From a virus, in IMG/VR virus record IMGVR_UViG_3300038954_000142, positions 1 through 23,882 of that record: a stretch of 23,882 nt of DNA, one strand, 5' to 3'. The notes under the pieces were generated by a model, which had not been told where the DNA came from, did not search any database, and was given only the letters and a program-made list of their open reading frames with translations. This document shows, one piece after another, positions 2,579-23,882 of the stretch. Numbering within the stretch: the first letter of the stretch is position 1; every line of letters begins with the position of its first letter. Made by a program: the position numbers and the translations under genes.

Positions 2579-2844
2579 TGTTACATATCGATATTGTTGA
2601 TAAAATAAATGAGTTACTTACTGGCTATGATGTATTAGTAGGTACTTTAGTAATCACTAATACATCTGGTATAGTGGTAAATATAAATGAAGAAATATAT
2701 ATAGCATATGCAGTAGAAGAAGAACAAGTGTTTATAGGCAATAACTATAATGATGTACTTATTGGTAACTGTAGTTTAGTAGAATTTAGTATCTTTGTAA
2801 AAGACTTTATGAATACTTATGGAGATAATATATATGTTAAATAG
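2578..2844 (+). CDS. hypothetical protein between mazG-like gene and reductase
   Basis: An 88-residue acidic protein whose ATG overlaps the MazG-like stop (TAATG). Its 3' end overlaps the preferred reductase start by 11 bases, so translation of the three genes is probably coupled. Predicted content is an N-terminal helix (IDIVDKINELLTGYD), several beta strands (VLVGTLVITNTSGIVVNI, EEIYIAYAVEEEQVFIGN) and a C-terminal helix. No motif that I recognise. The conserved operon position suggests it is real. Function unknown. Confidence 0.6.
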   Translation: MLHIDIVDKINELLTGYDVLVGTLVITNTSGIVVNINEEIYIAYAVEEEQVFIGNNYNDVLIGNCSLVEFSIFVKDFMNTYGDNIYVK

Positions 2845-3578
2845 CATAGGTAGTGCAGTATGGAATAGTAAATACGCAGCATATGAGGGAGAAACTTTTA
2901 AAGATGGGTGTAAACGAGTAGTCAGTGTTACCGATGGGTACTTTAATAGATCAGAACAATCTTTGTTATTTGATATGCTGTATAATCTTAAGTTTTCTCC
3001 TGGTGGTAGAATATGGTTTAGTGCTGGAAAAGAGAAACCACAATACGCTAACTGTGCTTTATTTGATGTAGATGATACGAAAGAAAGCTGGGGTAGTACT
3101 CTCTCTGATATAGCTGTATCTCTAATGTCGGGTAATGGTATTGGTATAGAGGTATCTAATATCAGAGGTAAAGGAGAACGTATCAATGGCAGCGGTGGTA
3201 CAGCTAGTGGTACATTAAGTTATGTATCTATGATCAATGAAGTAGCACGACATATTATGCAAGGGAATATACATAGATCTGCTTGTCATAGTGCAGTACA
3301 CTGGAAGCATAAAGATGTATACCATTGGTTAACGAGTAAGCAATGGGATGAAAACTATACTAGACTAAAGAGCATTAGTTATGATTATCCTGCTCCATTT
3401 GATACCTTTAATTTGTCTATTCGATATGATACAGACTTTATAGAAGCATATCATAATCCAGAGAATGAAGATCATACATATGCTGTAGACTTGTGGAATG
3501 CTCATACTAGAGTTATGTTTGAATTTTCAGACCCTAGTATACAATTTGATACTGATGATAATATTCTTCGCAATGCGT
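2834..3578 (+). CDS. nrdJ: class II ribonucleotide reductase, exon 1
   Basis: This is the N-terminal 248 codons plus one base of an adenosylcobalamin-type ribonucleotide reductase, which makes dNTP precursors. Motifs: FSPGGRIWFSAG (residues 54-65), the redox cysteine C74 in YANCALF, the nucleotide/effector-site segment SGNGIGIEVSNIRGKG (about 100-114), and GSGGTASGTLSYVSMINE. The exon ends ...RNA followed by a T that must join two bases of exon 2. I chose ATG 2834 because GGAG at 2821-2824 lies 9 bases upstream; an in-frame ATG at 2819 is possible but lacks such a site. Read through without splicing, the frame stops at TAA 3578-3580. Joined to 3792-4663 it gives 538 residues, normal for a compact phage class II enzyme. 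Confidence 0.87.
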
Positions 3579-3791
3579 AAACTAACAATGCGCCTTTAGT
3601 CAGTAATGGCTATCGAATAACCTGGAATATCAGGGAAAGTCTAGAGATAGATAACCCTGAGAGATAGATGTACAATGGAGTACATAAGCTCGCAGAGACT
3701 ACCAACAGGGTACCATAACAAAGATGTATGGCACGTGGTATAGTCCGGACTATAGATATAATCTAACTACGAAACTATAGCTAACATATCG
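3579..3791 (+). ncRNA. ORF-less group I self-splicing intron in the reductase gene
   Basis: This segment is non-coding and interrupts an otherwise collinear reductase. It shows group I core features: GCAGAGACTA (P7 5' strand, around 3700) complementary to ATAGTCC (P7 3' strand, around 3740; GACTA with TAGTC), a P3 candidate ACCTG with CAGGGT, a P4/P5 region with ATATCAGGGAAAG and CCCTG, and a terminal G at 3791. P1 can form between exon GCGT at 3575-3578 and intron ATGCGC at 3588-3593, giving the usual U-G pair at the 5' splice site. P10 can form between intron AAC and exon 2 GTT. Removing exactly 213 nt restores the frame and creates the active-site sequence N-A-C-C-E. Splice sites are inferred. 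No endonuclease is encoded inside it. Confidence 0.85.
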
Positions 3792-4663
3792 GTTGCGAAA
3801 TATTATCGGATACAAATGGTGATAGCTGCCATCTTGCATCTATCAATCTAGCAAACATAAAAACAGATCTTGAGTTAAAGCGTGTTGTGTCTATAATGAC
3901 TAAATTTATGATGGTAGTTAAAAATGTAGATACATATGCTTTACCCTTTATGCGTGATATTGGTTTATCTAATGGTAGACTAGGGCTAGGGATTATGGGC
4001 ATGCACAATTGGTTATTGCAGAGAGAATTACCATACCAATGGTGTGATGATCTATATGGATTGTTTGATACGTATACGTATACTGCGAGAGAACAGGCAT
4101 ATGTTACAGCTAAGCAGTATGGTTTTAGTGAACCTGTAGCATTGTTCGCTCAAGCTCCGACTGGCAGTATAGCACGCCTTCACAATGGTATCTCAGGAGG
4201 GATAGAGCCTGTATACTCTGCTGCATACAAATGGAGATACCAGAGTAAAGGCAAGCGTATTGAAGAAACTGTTATAGATCCTTATGTGTACCGTCTCATT
4301 AAAGAAGGAAAGATAAACCCTTATGAACCATTTAAAGATGCACTATCATTAGCTAATCCAGAAGGGTTTCAAGATAGAGTATATATGCAATCTATGATAC
4401 AGTACTTCACAGATAATGCAATCTCTAGTACAATCAACCTACCCCAATGGGGTACAGAAGGTAATAACGAGAACACATTACCATACTATCGGAATGTACT
4501 TATGGAGTATCTACCTAAACTTCGGGGTATTACTGTGTATGCTGATGGGGCAAGAGAAGGTCAGCCTATGACTAGCATACCAATTATAGATGCACTTAAT
4601 GAAACAGGATTGATAGAGGATACTCAGTATAGTAACTGTAACTCAGGTCTTTGTGCTACATAG
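3792..4663 (+). CDS. nrdJ: class II ribonucleotide reductase, exon 2
   Basis: This is the C-terminal part of the reductase. With the split codon T+GT it begins C-C-E-I-L-S-D, so the catalytic triad reads N247-x-C249-x-E251, matching N437/C439/E441 of E. coli NrdA and the NPCGE motif of class II enzymes. A second redox cysteine is likely C261 in GDSCHLASINL. Further family blocks are RLGLGIMGMHNWL, APTGSIARLHNGISGGIEPVY (the phosphate-binding PTGS region), FTDNAISSTINLP and YADGAREGQP. The protein ends C531-x4-C536 plus AT, the mobile cysteine pair reduced by thioredoxin-like partners. An ATG at 3887 opens the same frame but is internal to conserved sequence and is unlikely to be a real start. 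A terminator follows. Confidence 0.87.
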
Positions 4664-4683: not shown

Positions 4684-4817
4684 ATCGATTTTAAAAAATT
4701 ACCCTAAATTCTATGGCTTTCTAATGCTCTAAAATTTAGGGTATTTTTTATATAGGGGGTAAGTACACTCTATCCATAGTTCAGGTAGGGTAGAGTATAA
4801 AATAGGCAATATAAAAC
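4684..4817 (+). repeat. three-copy structured intergenic element, copy A
   Basis: This is the first of three related non-coding segments (others at 16087 and 21023), all in the same orientation. Shared blocks in order are ATCGATTTTWAA, a stem-forming segment, TTTTTTATATAGGGG, GTAAGT-like, a second stem around AGGTAGGGTA, and A-rich AATATAAAA. In this copy the first stem is ACCCTAAATT pairing with AATTTAGGGT. The second is ACTCTATCC (from about 4765) pairing with GGGTAGAGT around a 12-base loop. A regulatory RNA, terminator-antiterminator or processing element are all possible. It sits between the reductase stop and the first TTATCA promoter. Confidence 0.7.
4694..4750 (+). terminator. rho-independent terminator after the reductase
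   Basis: TACCCTAAATT at 4700-4710 pairs perfectly with AATTTAGGGTA at 4733-4743, followed by TTTTTT at 4744-4749. A-rich sequence before the left arm means the same hairpin could also stop transcription on the minus strand. It ends the nucleotide-metabolism operon and forms the 5' half of repeat element A. Confidence 0.85.
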
Positions 4818-4898
4818 AAATAGTACATATACTAACATATTAGAACATCTCTGTACATATAGTATAAGAACAGATATTCTTAATTCTGTATCACCTAT

Positions 4899-4966
4899 TT
4901 ATCATCTGTTTATCAGATGTTTATCAGCTTCTTATCATTTAACTCTCTGTAGCTATCTGGTATGAT
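4899..4966 (+). promoter_or_regulatory. TTATCA-array promoter 1
   Basis: Four TTATCA boxes start at 4899, 4910, 4921 and 4932, with an exact 11-bp period of about one helical turn. The last abuts a poor -35 (TTTAAC, 4938-4943), followed by a 17-bp spacer and a good -10 (TATGAT, 4961-4966). The same layout recurs at 5783-5850. A weak -35 with helically phased upstream boxes suggests a promoter that needs a phage or host activator. The first gene downstream starts at 5053. The rest of 4818-5052 is an AT-rich leader ending in AGGAG; no other gene is seen there. Confidence 0.75.
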
Positions 4967-5052
4967 AGGTACATCACTAAGTTGAATATCCAAACACTTA
5001 GTAAAAGTTAATACGGTATCAATGATCAATTACTATATTAGGAGTTACAACT

Positions 5053-5217
5053 ATGTACGTTATCATTACTGATTACGGGTATGTTAAAGCTATCAATGCT
5101 AATAATACGTTTAATACTACTCGTTATATTGACTACGCTATGAAGTTTTCTACTTATAATGAGGCTCTGGTTAAGATGGGTATGGTAGACGATAGCGCGT
5201 ATATTGTTAGTATTTAA
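5053..5217 (+). CDS. small hypothetical protein, first gene after TTATCA promoter 1
   Basis: A 54-residue frame (MYVIITDYGYVKAIN...) starts at ATG 5053, preceded by GGAG at 5041-5044 with 8-base spacing, and ends at TAA 5215-5217. A good ribosome site and position as first gene behind promoter 1 support it as real. It is predicted as beta strands followed by a helix (NEALVKMGMV), with no cysteine pairs or catalytic motif. The gene 14 bases downstream probably shares the transcript. Function unknown; a small early or middle host-interaction protein is only a guess from context. Confidence 0.65.
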   Translation: MYVIITDYGYVKAINANNTFNTTRYIDYAMKFSTYNEALVKMGMVDDSAYIVSI

Positions 5218-5231
5218 AGAGAGGTACACTA

Positions 5232-5420
5232 ATGGATATTACTATTGAGCAAGCTATGTTTACAATCGATAAACATTCTATCTATGATAATGGATACCAG
5301 ATTGATAGTATTATTTATCACGGGAATACCGATACATACACTATTGTATATTGTGATGGGTATGAAGTGGAAGTAGATAAAGAATATGAGGTAACGAATG
5401 TATTTTATGAGTATTCCTAA
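5232..5420 (+). CDS. small hypothetical beta-rich protein (paralogue pair member 1)
   Basis: A 62-residue acidic protein, start supported by GAGAGG. The core IDSIIYHGNTDTYTIVYCDGYEVEV resembles VENVLYLWDNVYLIRYSDGTEIQV of the next gene. Both read as an N-terminal 'YD.G..(I/V)(D/E)' segment followed by two or three strands and a final 'Y'. They are probably tandem duplicates of a small beta-sheet protein. The reading frame overlaps the next gene by 23 bases. No known family recognised. Confidence 0.6.
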   Translation: MDITIEQAMFTIDKHSIYDNGYQIDSIIYHGNTDTYTIVYCDGYEVEVDKEYEVTNVFYEYS

Positions 5421-5592
5421 CGTCTGGTATAATAATGTATGTAATACATACGATAGTGTATATGATGAGGGTAAACGTGTAGAGAATGTACTGTACCTTT
5501 GGGATAATGTATACTTAATAAGATATAGTGATGGTACAGAGATACAGGTACTTAACGATTATATGCTATCAATAGTGGAGAATGAACAATGA
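5398..5592 (+). CDS. small hypothetical beta-rich protein (paralogue pair member 2)
   Basis: A 64-residue protein. ATG 5398 has GAGG about 6 bases upstream, inside the previous gene, so I prefer it over the in-frame ATG at 5407. The sequence YDEGKRVENVLYLWDNVYLIRYSDGTEIQVLNDY parallels the preceding protein and suggests tandem duplication and divergence. Its stop overlaps the next ATG (ATGA), so the genes are translationally coupled. Function unknown. Confidence 0.6.
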   Translation: MYFMSIPNVWYNNVCNTYDSVYDEGKRVENVLYLWDNVYLIRYSDGTEIQVLNDYMLSIVENEQ

Positions 5593-5777
5593 AAGTATAC
5601 ATTATTATAGCTTCTAATAGGGAAGATGATAACGACTATGATTACGAAACTTCTATGGCTGTTTGTACTGCACAGAGTAAAGAGCAAGCTATTGATTTAT
5701 TCTTTCTATGGAATGTTGGGTATCCTTTTATTCTATCTTGTGAGGCGTACAATCCAGAAGTAGAAACTTTGTACTGA
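5589..5777 (+). CDS. small hypothetical protein
   Basis: A 62-residue acidic protein coupled to the preceding gene through an ATGA overlap. It has an N-terminal strand (MKVYIIIAS), an acidic turn (NREDDNDYDYE), a strand (SMAVCTAQ), and a helix SKEQAIDLFFLWNVGYPF typical of small alpha/beta phage proteins. No motif recognised. It is the last gene of the unit driven by promoter 1; promoter 2 begins 5 bases after its stop. Confidence 0.55.
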   Translation: MKVYIIIASNREDDNDYDYETSMAVCTAQSKEQAIDLFFLWNVGYPFILSCEAYNPEVETLY

Positions 5778-5782
5778 TATTT

Positions 5783-5850
5783 TTATCATCTGTATATCAG
5801 ATAGTTATCAGACATTTATCATTAAACTGTCTGTACCTTTTTGCTATGAT
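5783..5850 (+). promoter_or_regulatory. TTATCA-array promoter 2
   Basis: Boxes start at 5783 (TTATCA), 5794 (ATATCA), 5805 (TTATCA) and 5816 (TTATCA), again with an exact 11-bp period. They abut TTAAAC (5822-5827), a 17-bp spacer and TATGAT (5845-5850). Geometry is identical to promoter 1 and the flanks are also similar (TCTGTA, CTGTCTGTA). It drives the gene at 5902 and probably those downstream to 7746. Confidence 0.75.
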
Positions 5851-5901
5851 AGATACATAAGTTAAACATCTGGTTTAGCTAACTGATATGGAGTAACTAC
5901 T

Positions 5902-6207
5902 ATGTTTGTCTATGAAGCTACGTTGTTGGGTAATAGGTCTGGTAAGGTAGGTATCATCTGTGGTGATGAGAATGAACTATATGCCGCTATGGATAACTTG
6001 TACGGTACTGCTCATATTAGTTACAAAATACAAGATGAGGTAGAGTATTACGATACACTAGACGGGCATATCCTCTATACTAACTCTACAGGCAAGATGT
6101 ATGCTGCTCATAAATCTGTACTGATGTATACCTATGATTGCGGGGATATTGAAGATGCATACGATATGGTAGCTAATCTTATTAGTATTAAGTATCGTAA
6201 TTTCTAA
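5902..6207 (+). CDS. hypothetical protein, first gene after TTATCA promoter 2
   Basis: A 101-residue protein with GGAG upstream of its ATG. It begins with a strand (MFVYEATLLG), followed by GKVGIICGDENELYAAMDNLYGT, which suggests an alpha/beta arrangement, and a C-terminal helix EDAYDMVANLISIKY. It is the largest gene of the small-gene block. No family recognised and no catalytic signature visible. Its position directly behind an array promoter suggests co-regulation with the gene at 5053. Confidence 0.6.
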   Translation: MFVYEATLLGNRSGKVGIICGDENELYAAMDNLYGTAHISYKIQDEVEYYDTLDGHILYTNSTGKMYAAHKSVLMYTYDCGDIEDAYDMVANLISIKYRNF

Positions 6208-6231
6208 CTAATAGTAGAGGGGTACAGCTCA

Positions 6232-6450
6232 ATGATTACACTAGCATCTACACTCAATGGTTATGCAGTATACCATACCGTAGGCACAGAACAAACATTA
6301 GTGGGTACTTTGGAAGGTGAGTACCATCTACCCACTATGCAAGTGTATAAGTATATCTTTGATGGTACAGAGCACATTAAACAGTATCTCGGAGATATGC
6401 AGCGTACACAAGCATTCAAGATGTTTAAAGCGTTGAAAGATTGTGAATAG
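6232..6450 (+). CDS. small hypothetical protein with EYHLPT motif
   Basis: A 72-residue protein preceded by AGAGGGG. It contains GEYHLPTMQVYKYIF, and a matching DEYHLPTNTLVTYN occurs in the protein at 7131-7316. The corresponding DNA (GAGTACCATCTACC) is shared too. The two are therefore probably related small beta-strand proteins with a C-terminal helix (QAFKMFKALKD here). No known function. A perfect inverted repeat follows the stop. Confidence 0.6.
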   Translation: MITLASTLNGYAVYHTVGTEQTLVGTLEGEYHLPTMQVYKYIFDGTEHIKQYLGDMQRTQAFKMFKALKDCE

Positions 6451-6463
6451 TAAATTATAAAGC

Positions 6464-6495
6464 ATACTCCATATTCTTTGTTGAGTATGGAGTAT
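6464..6495 (+). other. intergenic hairpin
   Basis: ATACTCCATA (6464-6473) and TATGGAGTAT (6486-6495) form a perfect 10-bp stem with a 12-base loop between two small genes. No T-run follows, so it is more likely an mRNA processing or stability hairpin than a terminator. It also occludes an in-frame ATG at 6487, which favours the later start of the next gene. Confidence 0.6.
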
Positions 6496-6516
6496 ACACA
6501 GAAAGAGAGTATTACA

Positions 6517-6717
6517 ATGTGGAAAGAAGTAGATAGCGGTATTGTACGAACAATTGGTACTAAGAAATATATGATTATGGAAGGTACTACTAAATATAAT
6601 CTATACCTTTGGGATATTGATATCCGAGGATACCGATTGCTTAAGAGTAATATCAATCTTAAGTATGCAAAAGAAAGTGCATTGAAACATTATGATAAAT
6701 GGTTTCAAGCAGTGTAG
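6517..6717 (+). CDS. small hypothetical protein
   Basis: A 66-residue basic protein (MWKEVDSGIVRTIGTKKYMIMEG...). The frame is open further upstream, to a TTG at 6478 and an ATG at 6487, but these fall in a hairpin. ATG 6517 has GAAAGAGAG about 7 bases upstream and is preferred. Predicted strands (YMIMEGTTKYNLYLWDIDI) are followed by a helix (KYAKESALKHYDKW). The C-terminal 26 bases overlap the start of the third HNH gene. Function unknown. Confidence 0.55.
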   Translation: MWKEVDSGIVRTIGTKKYMIMEGTTKYNLYLWDIDIRGYRLLKSNINLKYAKESALKHYDKWFQAV

Positions 6718-7138
6718 TAGATGCAAACAATACAAACATATAGATCAATTCCATAGAAATAAAACCAGGGCAGATGGTAGAGTATATGAGTGTAGAGATT
6801 GCAAAACAATTTTAGATAGAGAAGTTAAAAGTACACTGACGTACAAACTATCAGCATTAAAATATAGACATAAGAGACGATCAATAGTCAATGATGACAT
6901 AGACATAGTGGTAGCATATACTTTATTACGTGGTGAAACATGTACGTATTGTGGTAAAATAACAAAACTTACATTAGATCATTTTGTACCAGTAAGCAAA
7001 GGAGGTAATAACGATATAAATAATCTTATACCTTGCTGTAAATCGTGTAATAGCAGTAAGAACGCACACAACCCTATACAATGGCTTATGGATAATAATA
7101 TACCTCTTAGTATCAATGGAGTATCAGCATATGAATGA
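6692..7138 (+). CDS. HNH endonuclease with N-terminal zinc ribbon (copy 3, no repeats)
   Basis: This 148-residue protein has the same domain order as the 202-residue HNH proteins but lacks their tandem repeats. It has a zinc ribbon at C8, C11, C34 and C37, a short basic linker (YRHKRRS), and an HNH core CTYCGK...LTLDHFVPVSKGGNNDINNLIPCCKSCN. The catalytic region is intact (DH pair, central N, two CxxC pairs). The gene overlaps the one before it by 26 bases and the one after it slightly, as if inserted at gene ends, which is typical of mobile HNH genes. No good ribosome site precedes ATG 6692, so coupled expression is likely. Target unknown. Confidence 0.85.
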   Translation: MINGFKQCSRCKQYKHIDQFHRNKTRADGRVYECRDCKTILDREVKSTLTYKLSALKYRHKRRSIVNDDIDIVVAYTLLRGETCTYCGKITKLTLDHFVPVSKGGNNDINNLIPCCKSCNSSKNAHNPIQWLMDNNIPLSINGVSAYE

Positions 7139-7316
7139 GTATGATTTTATGTATGGAGCATTCCAGTATACCATTATAACAGATAAAAAGGATAACCTTA
7201 TTAGTGTAGATGAGTACCATCTACCTACTAATACCCTGGTTACATATAACAGTAATAATAGTAACTGGAATGAAGTACAGGAATATTTTAGTAATCTCAT
7301 TGAAAAGTTAGGATGA
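7131..7316 (+). CDS. small hypothetical protein with EYHLPT motif
   Basis: A 61-residue protein. ATG 7131 is chosen because GGAG at 7118-7121 lies 9 bases upstream; an in-frame ATG at 7116 would place that site inside the gene. VDEYHLPTNTLVTYN parallels GEYHLPTMQVYKY of the protein at 6232-6450. It has strands plus a C-terminal helix (WNEVQEYFSNLIEKLG). No known family. The overlap with the HNH gene (8 bases) suggests that the HNH gene was inserted into a formerly continuous cluster. Confidence 0.55.
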   Translation: MNEYDFMYGAFQYTIITDKKDNLISVDEYHLPTNTLVTYNSNNSNWNEVQEYFSNLIEKLG

Positions 7317-7319
7317 TAT

Positions 7320-7559
7320 ATGAAACGATACAATATTAAAGCAATTGATCTAAAAACTCTTTATAATCCTGATACAGTATATGCACGATTGCCTCTAAGA
7401 GATATTTATAAATGTCATAATAATAGATATGTACTTGCATCTATTGAGCTATGGAATAGGGGATTAATCAATACAATTACATTTAACGTCTTTCATCCTG
7501 ATATGAATACTAAAATCATTCGTAATAGCTATCGTATGGAGAAACAGAGGGGTTACTAA
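7320..7559 (+). CDS. small hypothetical basic protein
   Basis: A 79-residue protein with AGGAT 6 bases upstream of the ATG. It is rich in R, K, N and Y (YNPDTVYARLPLRDIYKCHNNRYVLASIELWN), which might suit nucleic acid binding, but no motif is recognisable. Four bases separate it from the preceding gene and two from the following one, so the three are one translational unit. Function unknown. Confidence 0.55.
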   Translation: MKRYNIKAIDLKTLYNPDTVYARLPLRDIYKCHNNRYVLASIELWNRGLINTITFNVFHPDMNTKIIRNSYRMEKQRGY

Positions 7560-7560
7560 T

Positions 7561-7746
7561 ATGTATGATGATTATGAGGGTTATTATACCTTTGGATATG
7601 AAAGTAAATTCTATGGGCAATATATAATTTATACTGTACCTGCTAGTGAAGTTTTGCATATGTATGAAGATCTGCCAGATGATACAGTAGAGATTGTGCC
7701 CACAGTTTCACTAGACTATTTTGAAGTTGAATACTTTCGTAACTGA
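7561..7746 (+). CDS. small hypothetical acidic protein, last gene of block
   Basis: A 61-residue strongly acidic, tyrosine-rich protein (MYDDYEGYYTFGYESKFYGQYIIYT...) preceded by GAGGGG. Negative charge and small size are shared by many phage proteins that mimic DNA or inhibit host factors, but nothing specific here supports that. A rho-independent terminator follows its stop, marking the end of the small-gene operon. Confidence 0.55.
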   Translation: MYDDYEGYYTFGYESKFYGQYIIYTVPASEVLHMYEDLPDDTVEIVPTVSLDYFEVEYFRN

Positions 7747-19603: not shown

Positions 19604-19604
19604 G

Positions 19605-19624
19605 TAACTGTGATATCACAGTTA
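19605..19624. other. 20-bp perfect palindrome after the structural operon
   Basis: TAACTGTGATATCACAGTTA is fully self-complementary and begins 2 bases after the last fibre stop. Its core TGTGATATCACA also occurs twice at 22613-22648. It may be an operator or a hairpin; the T-poor downstream sequence argues against a simple terminator. Confidence 0.7.
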
Positions 19625-20052: not shown

Positions 20053-20300
<248 letters not shown>

Positions 20301-21022: not shown

Positions 21023-21160
21023 ATCGATTTTTAAATATCAGGGTATAAATATAGGTGATTACAAAGGGGTAGAAAATAAGGTATTTTTTATATAAGGGGT
21101 AAGTAGTATTCACTAGGGGTACAGGTAGGGTAGATGGTACAGAGACAAATATAAAAAATA
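21023..21160 (+). repeat. three-copy structured intergenic element, copy C
   Basis: This third copy has ATCGATTTTTAAA at 21023, a stem AAATATC...GGTATTT leading into TTTTTT (21084-21089), ATATAAGGGGTAAGT, CACTAGGGGTACAGGTAGGGTAGA and AAATATAAAAAAT. It lies in the convergent gap, in the same orientation as the other two and opposite to the nearest gene. A minus-strand frame over it (up to 21209) is a by-product of this structure. Confidence 0.7.
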
Positions 21161-22907: not shown

Positions 22908-23628
22908 ATGTACTCCATACTCCTGTAGATATATAATGCATAACATCTTCTTTATCTAACTTCTCATTAACTGCTATTCTATGGGGCAAATGTGCCATAT
23001 CTATATTATCTAGAAATGTATCCCCATAGATTGAATATGCTACTTCAAATGGATTAGAGCTTTCGTATATAGCTCTACTTTCTCGAATAGCTTTTACTCC
23101 TTTAGGTATCAGTCTTGGTACATTATCTGTCTTATCCCCAAATAGACAGAGAGTTAAAAGGTACAGATCAGGAGTTAAAGGTATATCATATAAACTTTTA
23201 GGTATACCAGCGTGTAAGTTAGTTCGTAGTGATGTACCATCTAGTTTCTCAATTGAACACCATTCTGGTAATTGAGCTAAATCCTTGTCAGATGTAATGA
23301 TAGGATACCCTTGCAAAGCTTTAATAGCTAATATATCATCCGCTTCTAAAAGAGGATTATAAAGAGTATCAAACATAGAATTAGTATTTATATCATTAAA
23401 TATCTCTTTTGCCCTTTTTCTATACTCCATTTGTTTATCAGTGATTTTCGTGATATCACGATTAGCTTTATATGCCGGATACAATTGCTTTCTTATGTTT
23501 TTGTATCCTTCAGTTACAATAGTACATCCCGCATACTTACTATACAATGCCCTATCTTTCTTCCATTGTTCATAACCGCCTCTGTACACATATTGGTAAA
23601 CAAGGTACCCACCGTCAATATAATGCAT
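22882..23628 (-). CDS. 5'-3' exonuclease / flap endonuclease (FEN superfamily)
   Basis: A 248-residue nuclease of the PIN/FEN type, like phage T5 D15 and the polymerase I 5' domain, which removes RNA primers and 5' flaps during replication. Motifs in order: D5 (YIDGG), YPAYKANR (50-57; helical-arch Y/K/R), EADD (95-98), TSDKDLAQL (112-120) and the helix-hairpin-helix block FGDKTDNVPRLIPKGVKAI (163-181, D165, D168). All metal-binding acids are present. The block has PRLIPKG where most members have PGxxGxG, a mild variation. The start overlaps the HNH stop (TAATG) and AAGGGG precedes it. Minus-strand replication gene, opposite to the structural operon. Confidence 0.9.
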   Translation of the reverse strand: MHYIDGGYLVYQYVYRGGYEQWKKDRALYSKYAGCTIVTEGYKNIRKQLYPAYKANRDITKITDKQMEYRKRAKEIFNDINTNSMFDTLYNPLLEADDILAIKALQGYPIITSDKDLAQLPEWCSIEKLDGTSLRTNLHAGIPKSLYDIPLTPDLYLLTLCLFGDKTDNVPRLIPKGVKAIRESRAIYESSNPFEVAYSIYGDTFLDNIDMAHLPHRIAVNEKLDKEDVMHYISTGVWSTYVRNNTSL

Positions 23629-23867
23629 TACATTAACCCCTTTTGTAGCATTTCAAGTGGAGTTTTATCCTTTTTCCTACTATTACACGGCTTGCAAGCA
23701 GGCACTAAGTTATCTATAGTATTAGTACCGCCTCTACTAATCGGCTGCATATGGTCTACTGTTAGCTCATTTACTGGGAATGGTTTGTAACAGTATGCAC
23801 AGCAATAGTTATATTCTGCTAGACGTTCCTGCCATTGTTCATTAGTGTATGTGCCAGCATCTTGCAC
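23628..23867 (-). CDS. short HNH endonuclease (copy 4)
   Basis: A 79-residue single-domain HNH protein: C23-x2-C26, D38-H39 (LTVDHMQPISRGG), N53 and C58-x2-C61 (ACKPCNSRKK). It starts at GTG 23867, chosen for the strong AAGGAG (23875-23880) 7 bases upstream. Unlike the other HNH proteins here it has neither zinc ribbon nor repeats and resembles generic phage HNH proteins that either act in packaging or are mobile. Here it is coupled to the exonuclease through a TAATG overlap. Its own promoter must lie beyond the window. Confidence 0.85.
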   Translation of the reverse strand: MQDAGTYTNEQWQERLAEYNYCCAYCYKPFPVNELTVDHMQPISRGGTNTIDNLVPACKPCNSRKKDKTPLEMLQKGLM

Positions 23868-23882
23868 TTTGCTTCTCCTTAT

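Follow-up and report, generated by a model that had tools for sequence, protein, structure and literature searches.

The window analysed here, a whole stretch of 23,882 bp, is a linear IMG/VR fragment for which no similar DNA was found among 50,697 phage records. Its class II ribonucleotide reductase gene is read as two same-frame ORFs split by several stops, and part of the catalytic barrel is out of frame, through a frameshift, decay or an insert. Four HNH-type endonuclease genes occur in these 24 kb, and a Thy1-like (thymidylate synthase) ORF lies between two of them that resemble each other. A perfect palindrome, TAACTGTGATATCACAGTTA, lies directly past the last plus-strand structural gene, and TATATA-rich low-complexity stretches are found between the plus- and minus-strand genes (Table 1).

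The original prediction had described two arrays of hexamers repeated every 11 bp, each with a poor -35 adjoining the last box, a 17-nt spacer and TATGAT, and all of this was borne out by the letters. Array A has exact TTATCA boxes at 4899, 4910, 4921 and 4932, to which we add a fifth, degenerate one (GTATCA) at 4888, and array B has TTATCA at 5783, 5805 and 5816, with ATATCA at 5794. The segment 4690-4762 folds, at -20.3 kcal/mol (z -4.05), into a hairpin with a U run behind it, and since hairpin and U run close the ribonucleotide reductase gene, array A starts a new transcription unit. When one mismatch at most is allowed, the pattern of four boxes at 11 bp is matched three times in the window against none in 40 dinucleotide shuffles; a pairwise box pattern with two mismatches was not above chance in the window (11 seen, 10.9 expected).

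Table 1. Features of the window, members of the MFYA family and carriers of the array promoters.
Feature	Position or record	Strand	Remark
Thy1-like ORF	821-1393
HNH-type endonuclease genes	196-804, 1398-2006, 6692-7138, 23628-23882
Class II ribonucleotide reductase gene	2819-4663		stops at 3581-3840
Intrinsic terminator between ribonucleotide reductase gene and array A	4700-4750	+	fold and U run
Array A, GTATCA (degenerate) and four TTATCA, 11-bp period	4888-4937	+
-35-like TTTAAC adjoining last box of array A	4938-4943	+
-10 TATGAT of array A, 23 nt past last box	4961-4966	+	spacing as in all abutting-array members
Predicted initiator CA of array A	4972-4973	+	predicted +1 at A4973, from CA conservation
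Array-A operon, four small ORFs (54, 62, 64, 62 aa)	5053-5777	+	RBS GGAG at 5041
Array B, TTATCA/ATATCA/TTATCA/TTATCA, 11-bp period	5783-5821	+
-35-like TTAAAC adjoining last box of array B	5822-5827	+
-10 TATGAT of array B, 23 nt past last box	5845-5850	+
Predicted initiator CA of array B	5856-5857	+	predicted +1 at A5857, from CA conservation
Array-B operon, small uncharacterised ORFs and HNH endonuclease gene (6692-7138)	5902-7746	+	operon extent inferred
Perfect palindrome	19604-19624
TATATA-rich low-complexity stretches	20053-20190, 21158-21160
MFYA members	L231:1989-2390, L212:7429-7818, L211:320-724, L214:5996-6397
MFYA member	L210:1341-1727	-
Carriers, part 1	window (2 promoters); G001/L010 and relative G009/L142; G002/L019; G003/L051 (2 promoters)
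Carriers, part 2	G008/L138 (two further promoters); G010/L173; G014/L208; G015/L231; G011-G013/L038, L049, L052

For none of the four ORFs behind array A did a Pfam or PHROGs assignment exceed chance, and no relatives were found for the array-B gene. The same holds across the other phages described below, where short operons follow the array promoters and encode small proteins, of which almost none matches a known family. The middle timing considered in the original prediction is not supported, and the small uncharacterised ORFs that the arrays drive in the window could equally be early genes. One family of about 130 aa, MFYA (A1; FYA[IV]...RDAWV), has IMG/VR matches in only five contigs, all of them array carriers, as judged by two degenerate peptide patterns that may miss distant members, and its gene lies within about 1.5 kb downstream of an array in each of the five. 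Its predicted structure reached a pLDDT of 49 and was set aside as evidence. The first array-driven genes of G003 (L209) and G015 (L231) are alike by eye (FNGSGYTVEL and FGGSGYSVEL), in phages that otherwise look different. Together with the MFYA family, the array-driven small genes are candidates for roles in host takeover or counter-defence.

The search of other phages for a phased array with the TATGAT geometry, which the original prediction had called for, was run on IMG/VR and found members. With them the class amounts to 16 promoters in 12 contigs from about nine lineages with a GC content of 33-65%, so that besides the window at least eight lineages, mostly unrelated, are carriers; since the contigs are for the most part fragments and a few genes recur in some of them, the nine lineages are mostly, not strictly, independent. 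Several members were found with patterns that include the 23-nt offset between the last box and the -10 and are excluded as tests of that offset, for which only two scans are unbiased. Scanning IMG/VR for three TTATCA boxes with no promoter condition gave 50 stretches, most of them unrelated repeats, which left 34 distinct arrays after removal of near-duplicates; a -10-like hexamer (at least 5/6) was present at offset 23 in 4 of the 34, and in 3 at most at any other offset. The other scan, with the 17-mer TATCAGGTATTTATCAT alone, found a -10 at exactly +23 in all seven sites with at least three boxes, compared with none of the 12 two-box sites (Fisher 2e-5). Moreover, a weight matrix built from the other phages only placed the two window promoters on top (50.6 and 44.6 bits), the best unrelated site of the window scoring -7.2, and in the leave-one-out version each member was the top match in its own carrier, including the genomes of 55-65% GC. 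A comparison of the array itself with phages and plasmids returned chance matches or none, and a literature search for the box sequence gave incidental matches only among the matches listed.

Alignment of the members gives a repeat unit WTATCAGGTAT in 3-5 copies, with the boxes proximal to the promoter best kept and conservation declining with distance from it. In the form where the array abuts the promoter, the last box is always TTATCAT and ends 23 nt before TATRMT, and the -35 is weak (TNNAAM). Of ten independent promoters, nine have the dinucleotide CA at nt 6-7 past the -10, against one of 12 control sites, a feature spotted after the alignment of the members, with no prior prediction. 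TATRMT at a fixed place, the 17-bp spacer and the position of CA are together those of a sigma70-type promoter, and because CA occupies the expected start position, transcription is predicted to start at A4973 and A5857. A different spacing is found in G008, where three array promoters lie in a row on the minus strand (last boxes at 720, 383 and 51; L213): two further promoters of this carrier have a perfect TTGACA-17-TATAAT and variant TTCTCA boxes, the last of them 33 nt from the -10 and not 23. The array thus sits 10 bp, or one helical turn, further upstream, which keeps it on the same helix face, and the -35 is good precisely where the array does not abut. Such a one-turn shift is what one would expect if the array has to face RNA polymerase, and no other observation suggests as strongly that the bound protein contacts the polymerase and acts as an activator. 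The sequences thus show a promoter class, its geometry, its start dinucleotide and its helical-turn shift, and we have hardly any doubt that the class is real.

The carriers are heterogeneous. Three of them (L038, L049 and L052) are 9.95-11.9 kb long and have terminal repeats of 71-84 bp, from which we conclude that they are circular. Their gene content looks inovirus-like: it includes Rep_1-like, PAPS-reductase-like and DNA methylase genes, and one for a secreted protein that contains proline-threonine linkers. L038, the annotated one, has a cytosine methylase, a Rep_1-like protein that falls slightly under the Pfam cut-off, and a P-loop protein that looks like an inovirus Zot ATPase. The proline-threonine linkers bring Chloroflexota to mind as a tentative candidate for the host. 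G003 is probably temperate, judging by a probable integrase gene that adjoins its array (annotated from sequence, with no family search), and its terminase is 45% identical to those of Streptomyces phages; the DnaN of one carrier is only 27-30% identical to plasmid copies. Not a single gene recurs in all 12 carrier contigs, of which most are fragments.

How could such an array work? The reading of the phased boxes beside a weak -35 as cooperative activator sites stands as the best one, on account of the recurrence with fixed geometry in unrelated phages, the start dinucleotide and the one-turn shift, and we consider it probable that the arrays serve an activator. The array would be a tandem site on which monomers bind in a head-to-tail row, one per 11-bp unit, along a single helical face. 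The monomer nearest the promoter, occupying roughly -41 to -36, would hold RNA polymerase by its sigma region 4 and/or alpha where the -10 is good but the -35 weak, and the operons of small uncharacterised proteins would be transcribed from there. As for the identity of this activator, the original prediction placed it outside the window or among the small genes within; a small window gene now looks less likely than a host-encoded protein, no gene being common to the carriers. We lean towards a host origin, since there is no such common gene, the circular genomes have no recognised HTH, and a box that recurs in about nine lineages, most of them unrelated, suggests a conserved host protein. In this regard, no PF00486, PF12728, PF01381 or PF04545 domain (OmpR winged helix, HTH_17, HTH_3 and sigma region 4) was found in the three circular genomes, and no PF00486 (Trans_reg_C winged helix) in the 11 carrier records searched, that is, all but G015. 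Several direct repeats at about 11 bp on one helical face are also the tandem-operator geometry of OmpR/PhoB regulators, and because the sites of ArcA, PhoB and SARP activators match in geometry and those of BldC differ, an OmpR/PhoB-type winged helix is our tentative choice of protein, made by analogy of the sites. The whole explanation, a host OmpR/PhoB-type activator on a tandem array, has in our estimation a probability of about 0.5. Against the fit to this family, PhoB and SARP sites have their last repeat 8-10 bp away from the -10, where the arrays have 23. Against the host, a shared phage-encoded regulator could lie beyond the carrier fragments, and the strict three-box form with TANNNT gave 26 matches in 84,980 prokaryote genomes, AT-rich or simple repeats and none convincing, which is unexpected if hosts use an identical array, although so strict a pattern would miss weaker or fewer-box host sites.

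The rival that we keep foremost beside the host OmpR/PhoB-type activator is a head-to-tail binder encoded by the phages themselves, a small HTH_17 (excisionase/BldC-like) or Cro-like protein that would activate and of which each carrier would have its own version. HTH_17 domains occur in five of the 12 carriers (G001, G003, G009, G014 and G015), small divergent Cro-like genes lie directly upstream of arrays in G002 and G014, and both BldC and excisionase-like proteins bind direct repeats cooperatively (PMC5859096, PMC11963761). Yet HTH_17 is absent, even at E 10, from the window, G002, G008, G010 and the three circular genomes, the carriers as a whole have no protein family in common, BldC repeats measure 9 bp and not 11, and one box common to unrelated phages sits badly with unrelated regulators, so we regard a phage-encoded binder as unlikely, though worth keeping in mind. 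The same Cro-like genes near two arrays, and the integrase gene annotated from sequence beside the array of the probably temperate G003, would suit operators of a prophage repressor or a host silencer keeping the operons off. Such a role is quite doubtful for boxes that lie upstream of the -35 and do not cover the -10, that are best kept proximally, and whose -35 is weak where the array abuts and perfect where it is one turn away.

Iterons and partition sites are likewise direct repeats, and the arrays of the circular genomes adjoin a Rep_1 gene; but the arrays of the tailed carriers precede operons of small genes, the array is present twice in two carriers and three times in another, and the fixed spacing to the -10 and the CA start are promoter constraints, which makes an origin of replication or a partition site with an incidental promoter very improbable. 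As for a functionless chance or low-complexity repeat, the window is indeed AT-rich and many AT-rich contigs have TTATCA repeats by chance, but the empty shuffles, an identical geometry in genomes of 55-65% GC and the results of the 17-mer scan, the CA initiator and the weight matrix contradict this idea, whose likelihood we take to be negligible.

As a rule, phage promoters that depend on an activator are restricted to phages that are related and carry the gene for it, and the occurrence of one design in about nine lineages, mostly unrelated, speaks for a shared host factor. It is conceivable, if somewhat speculative, that tailed dsDNA phages (one probably temperate) and filamentous inovirus-like elements each came independently to place operons of small proteins under one host regulator by means of a standard 11-bp array, so that a host signalling system would act directly on genes of infection. 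In any case, the class offers exact predicted starts, a testable rule of helical phasing and a bait sequence for the regulator.

Phage activators that help promoters with a weak -35 include T4 MotA, P2 Ogr, Mu Mor and lambda CII. To our knowledge, none of them relies on a row of 3-5 hexamers spaced 11 bp apart, and each is confined to related phages with their own activator gene. Other systems share the direct repeats. The MerR-like BldC binds cooperatively and head-to-tail to 9-bp direct repeats, AATTXXXXC (PMC5859096), a layout of direct repeats like that of the arrays, which differ in their 11-bp period and their box; proteins of the BldC/excisionase type were not found in several carriers. 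The SARP activators of Streptomyces, with an OmpR-type winged helix, read direct repeats 11 bp apart (PMC4393881) in a geometry that is also fixed relative to the -10, but a SARP site consists of two repeats on the face opposite RNA polymerase, and its 3′ repeat lies 8 bp from the -10, a place that the last phage box does not take. In Pho boxes the activator reads 11-nt units head-to-tail, as seen for PhoB (PMC4415409), and among the PhoB, PhoP and SphR systems SphR requires at least three repeats (PMC4415409, PMC1906773). Their sequence is CTGTCAT or CTTAACCT and not TTATCAG, the phage consensus being WTATCAGGTAT, and in E. coli they lie 10 bp from the -10. With their last box 23 or 33 nt upstream of the -10, the phage arrays are thus neither Pho boxes nor SARP sites. 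A further likeness is to the operators of ArcA, an OmpR/PhoB-family response regulator of E. coli, with 2-5 direct repeats, mostly 11 bp centre to centre and on one face (PMC3798270), which agree with the arrays in repeat number, period and helical face. They have another box sequence and vary in number, spacing and location (PMC3798270), whereas the phage arrays keep their fixed 23 or 33 nt from the -10. The repeat geometry, which the original prediction took to be possibly novel, is therefore already known from host OmpR/PhoB regulators such as ArcA, PhoB and SARP; no phage example was found in the literature, and what appears to be new is its use across unrelated phages.
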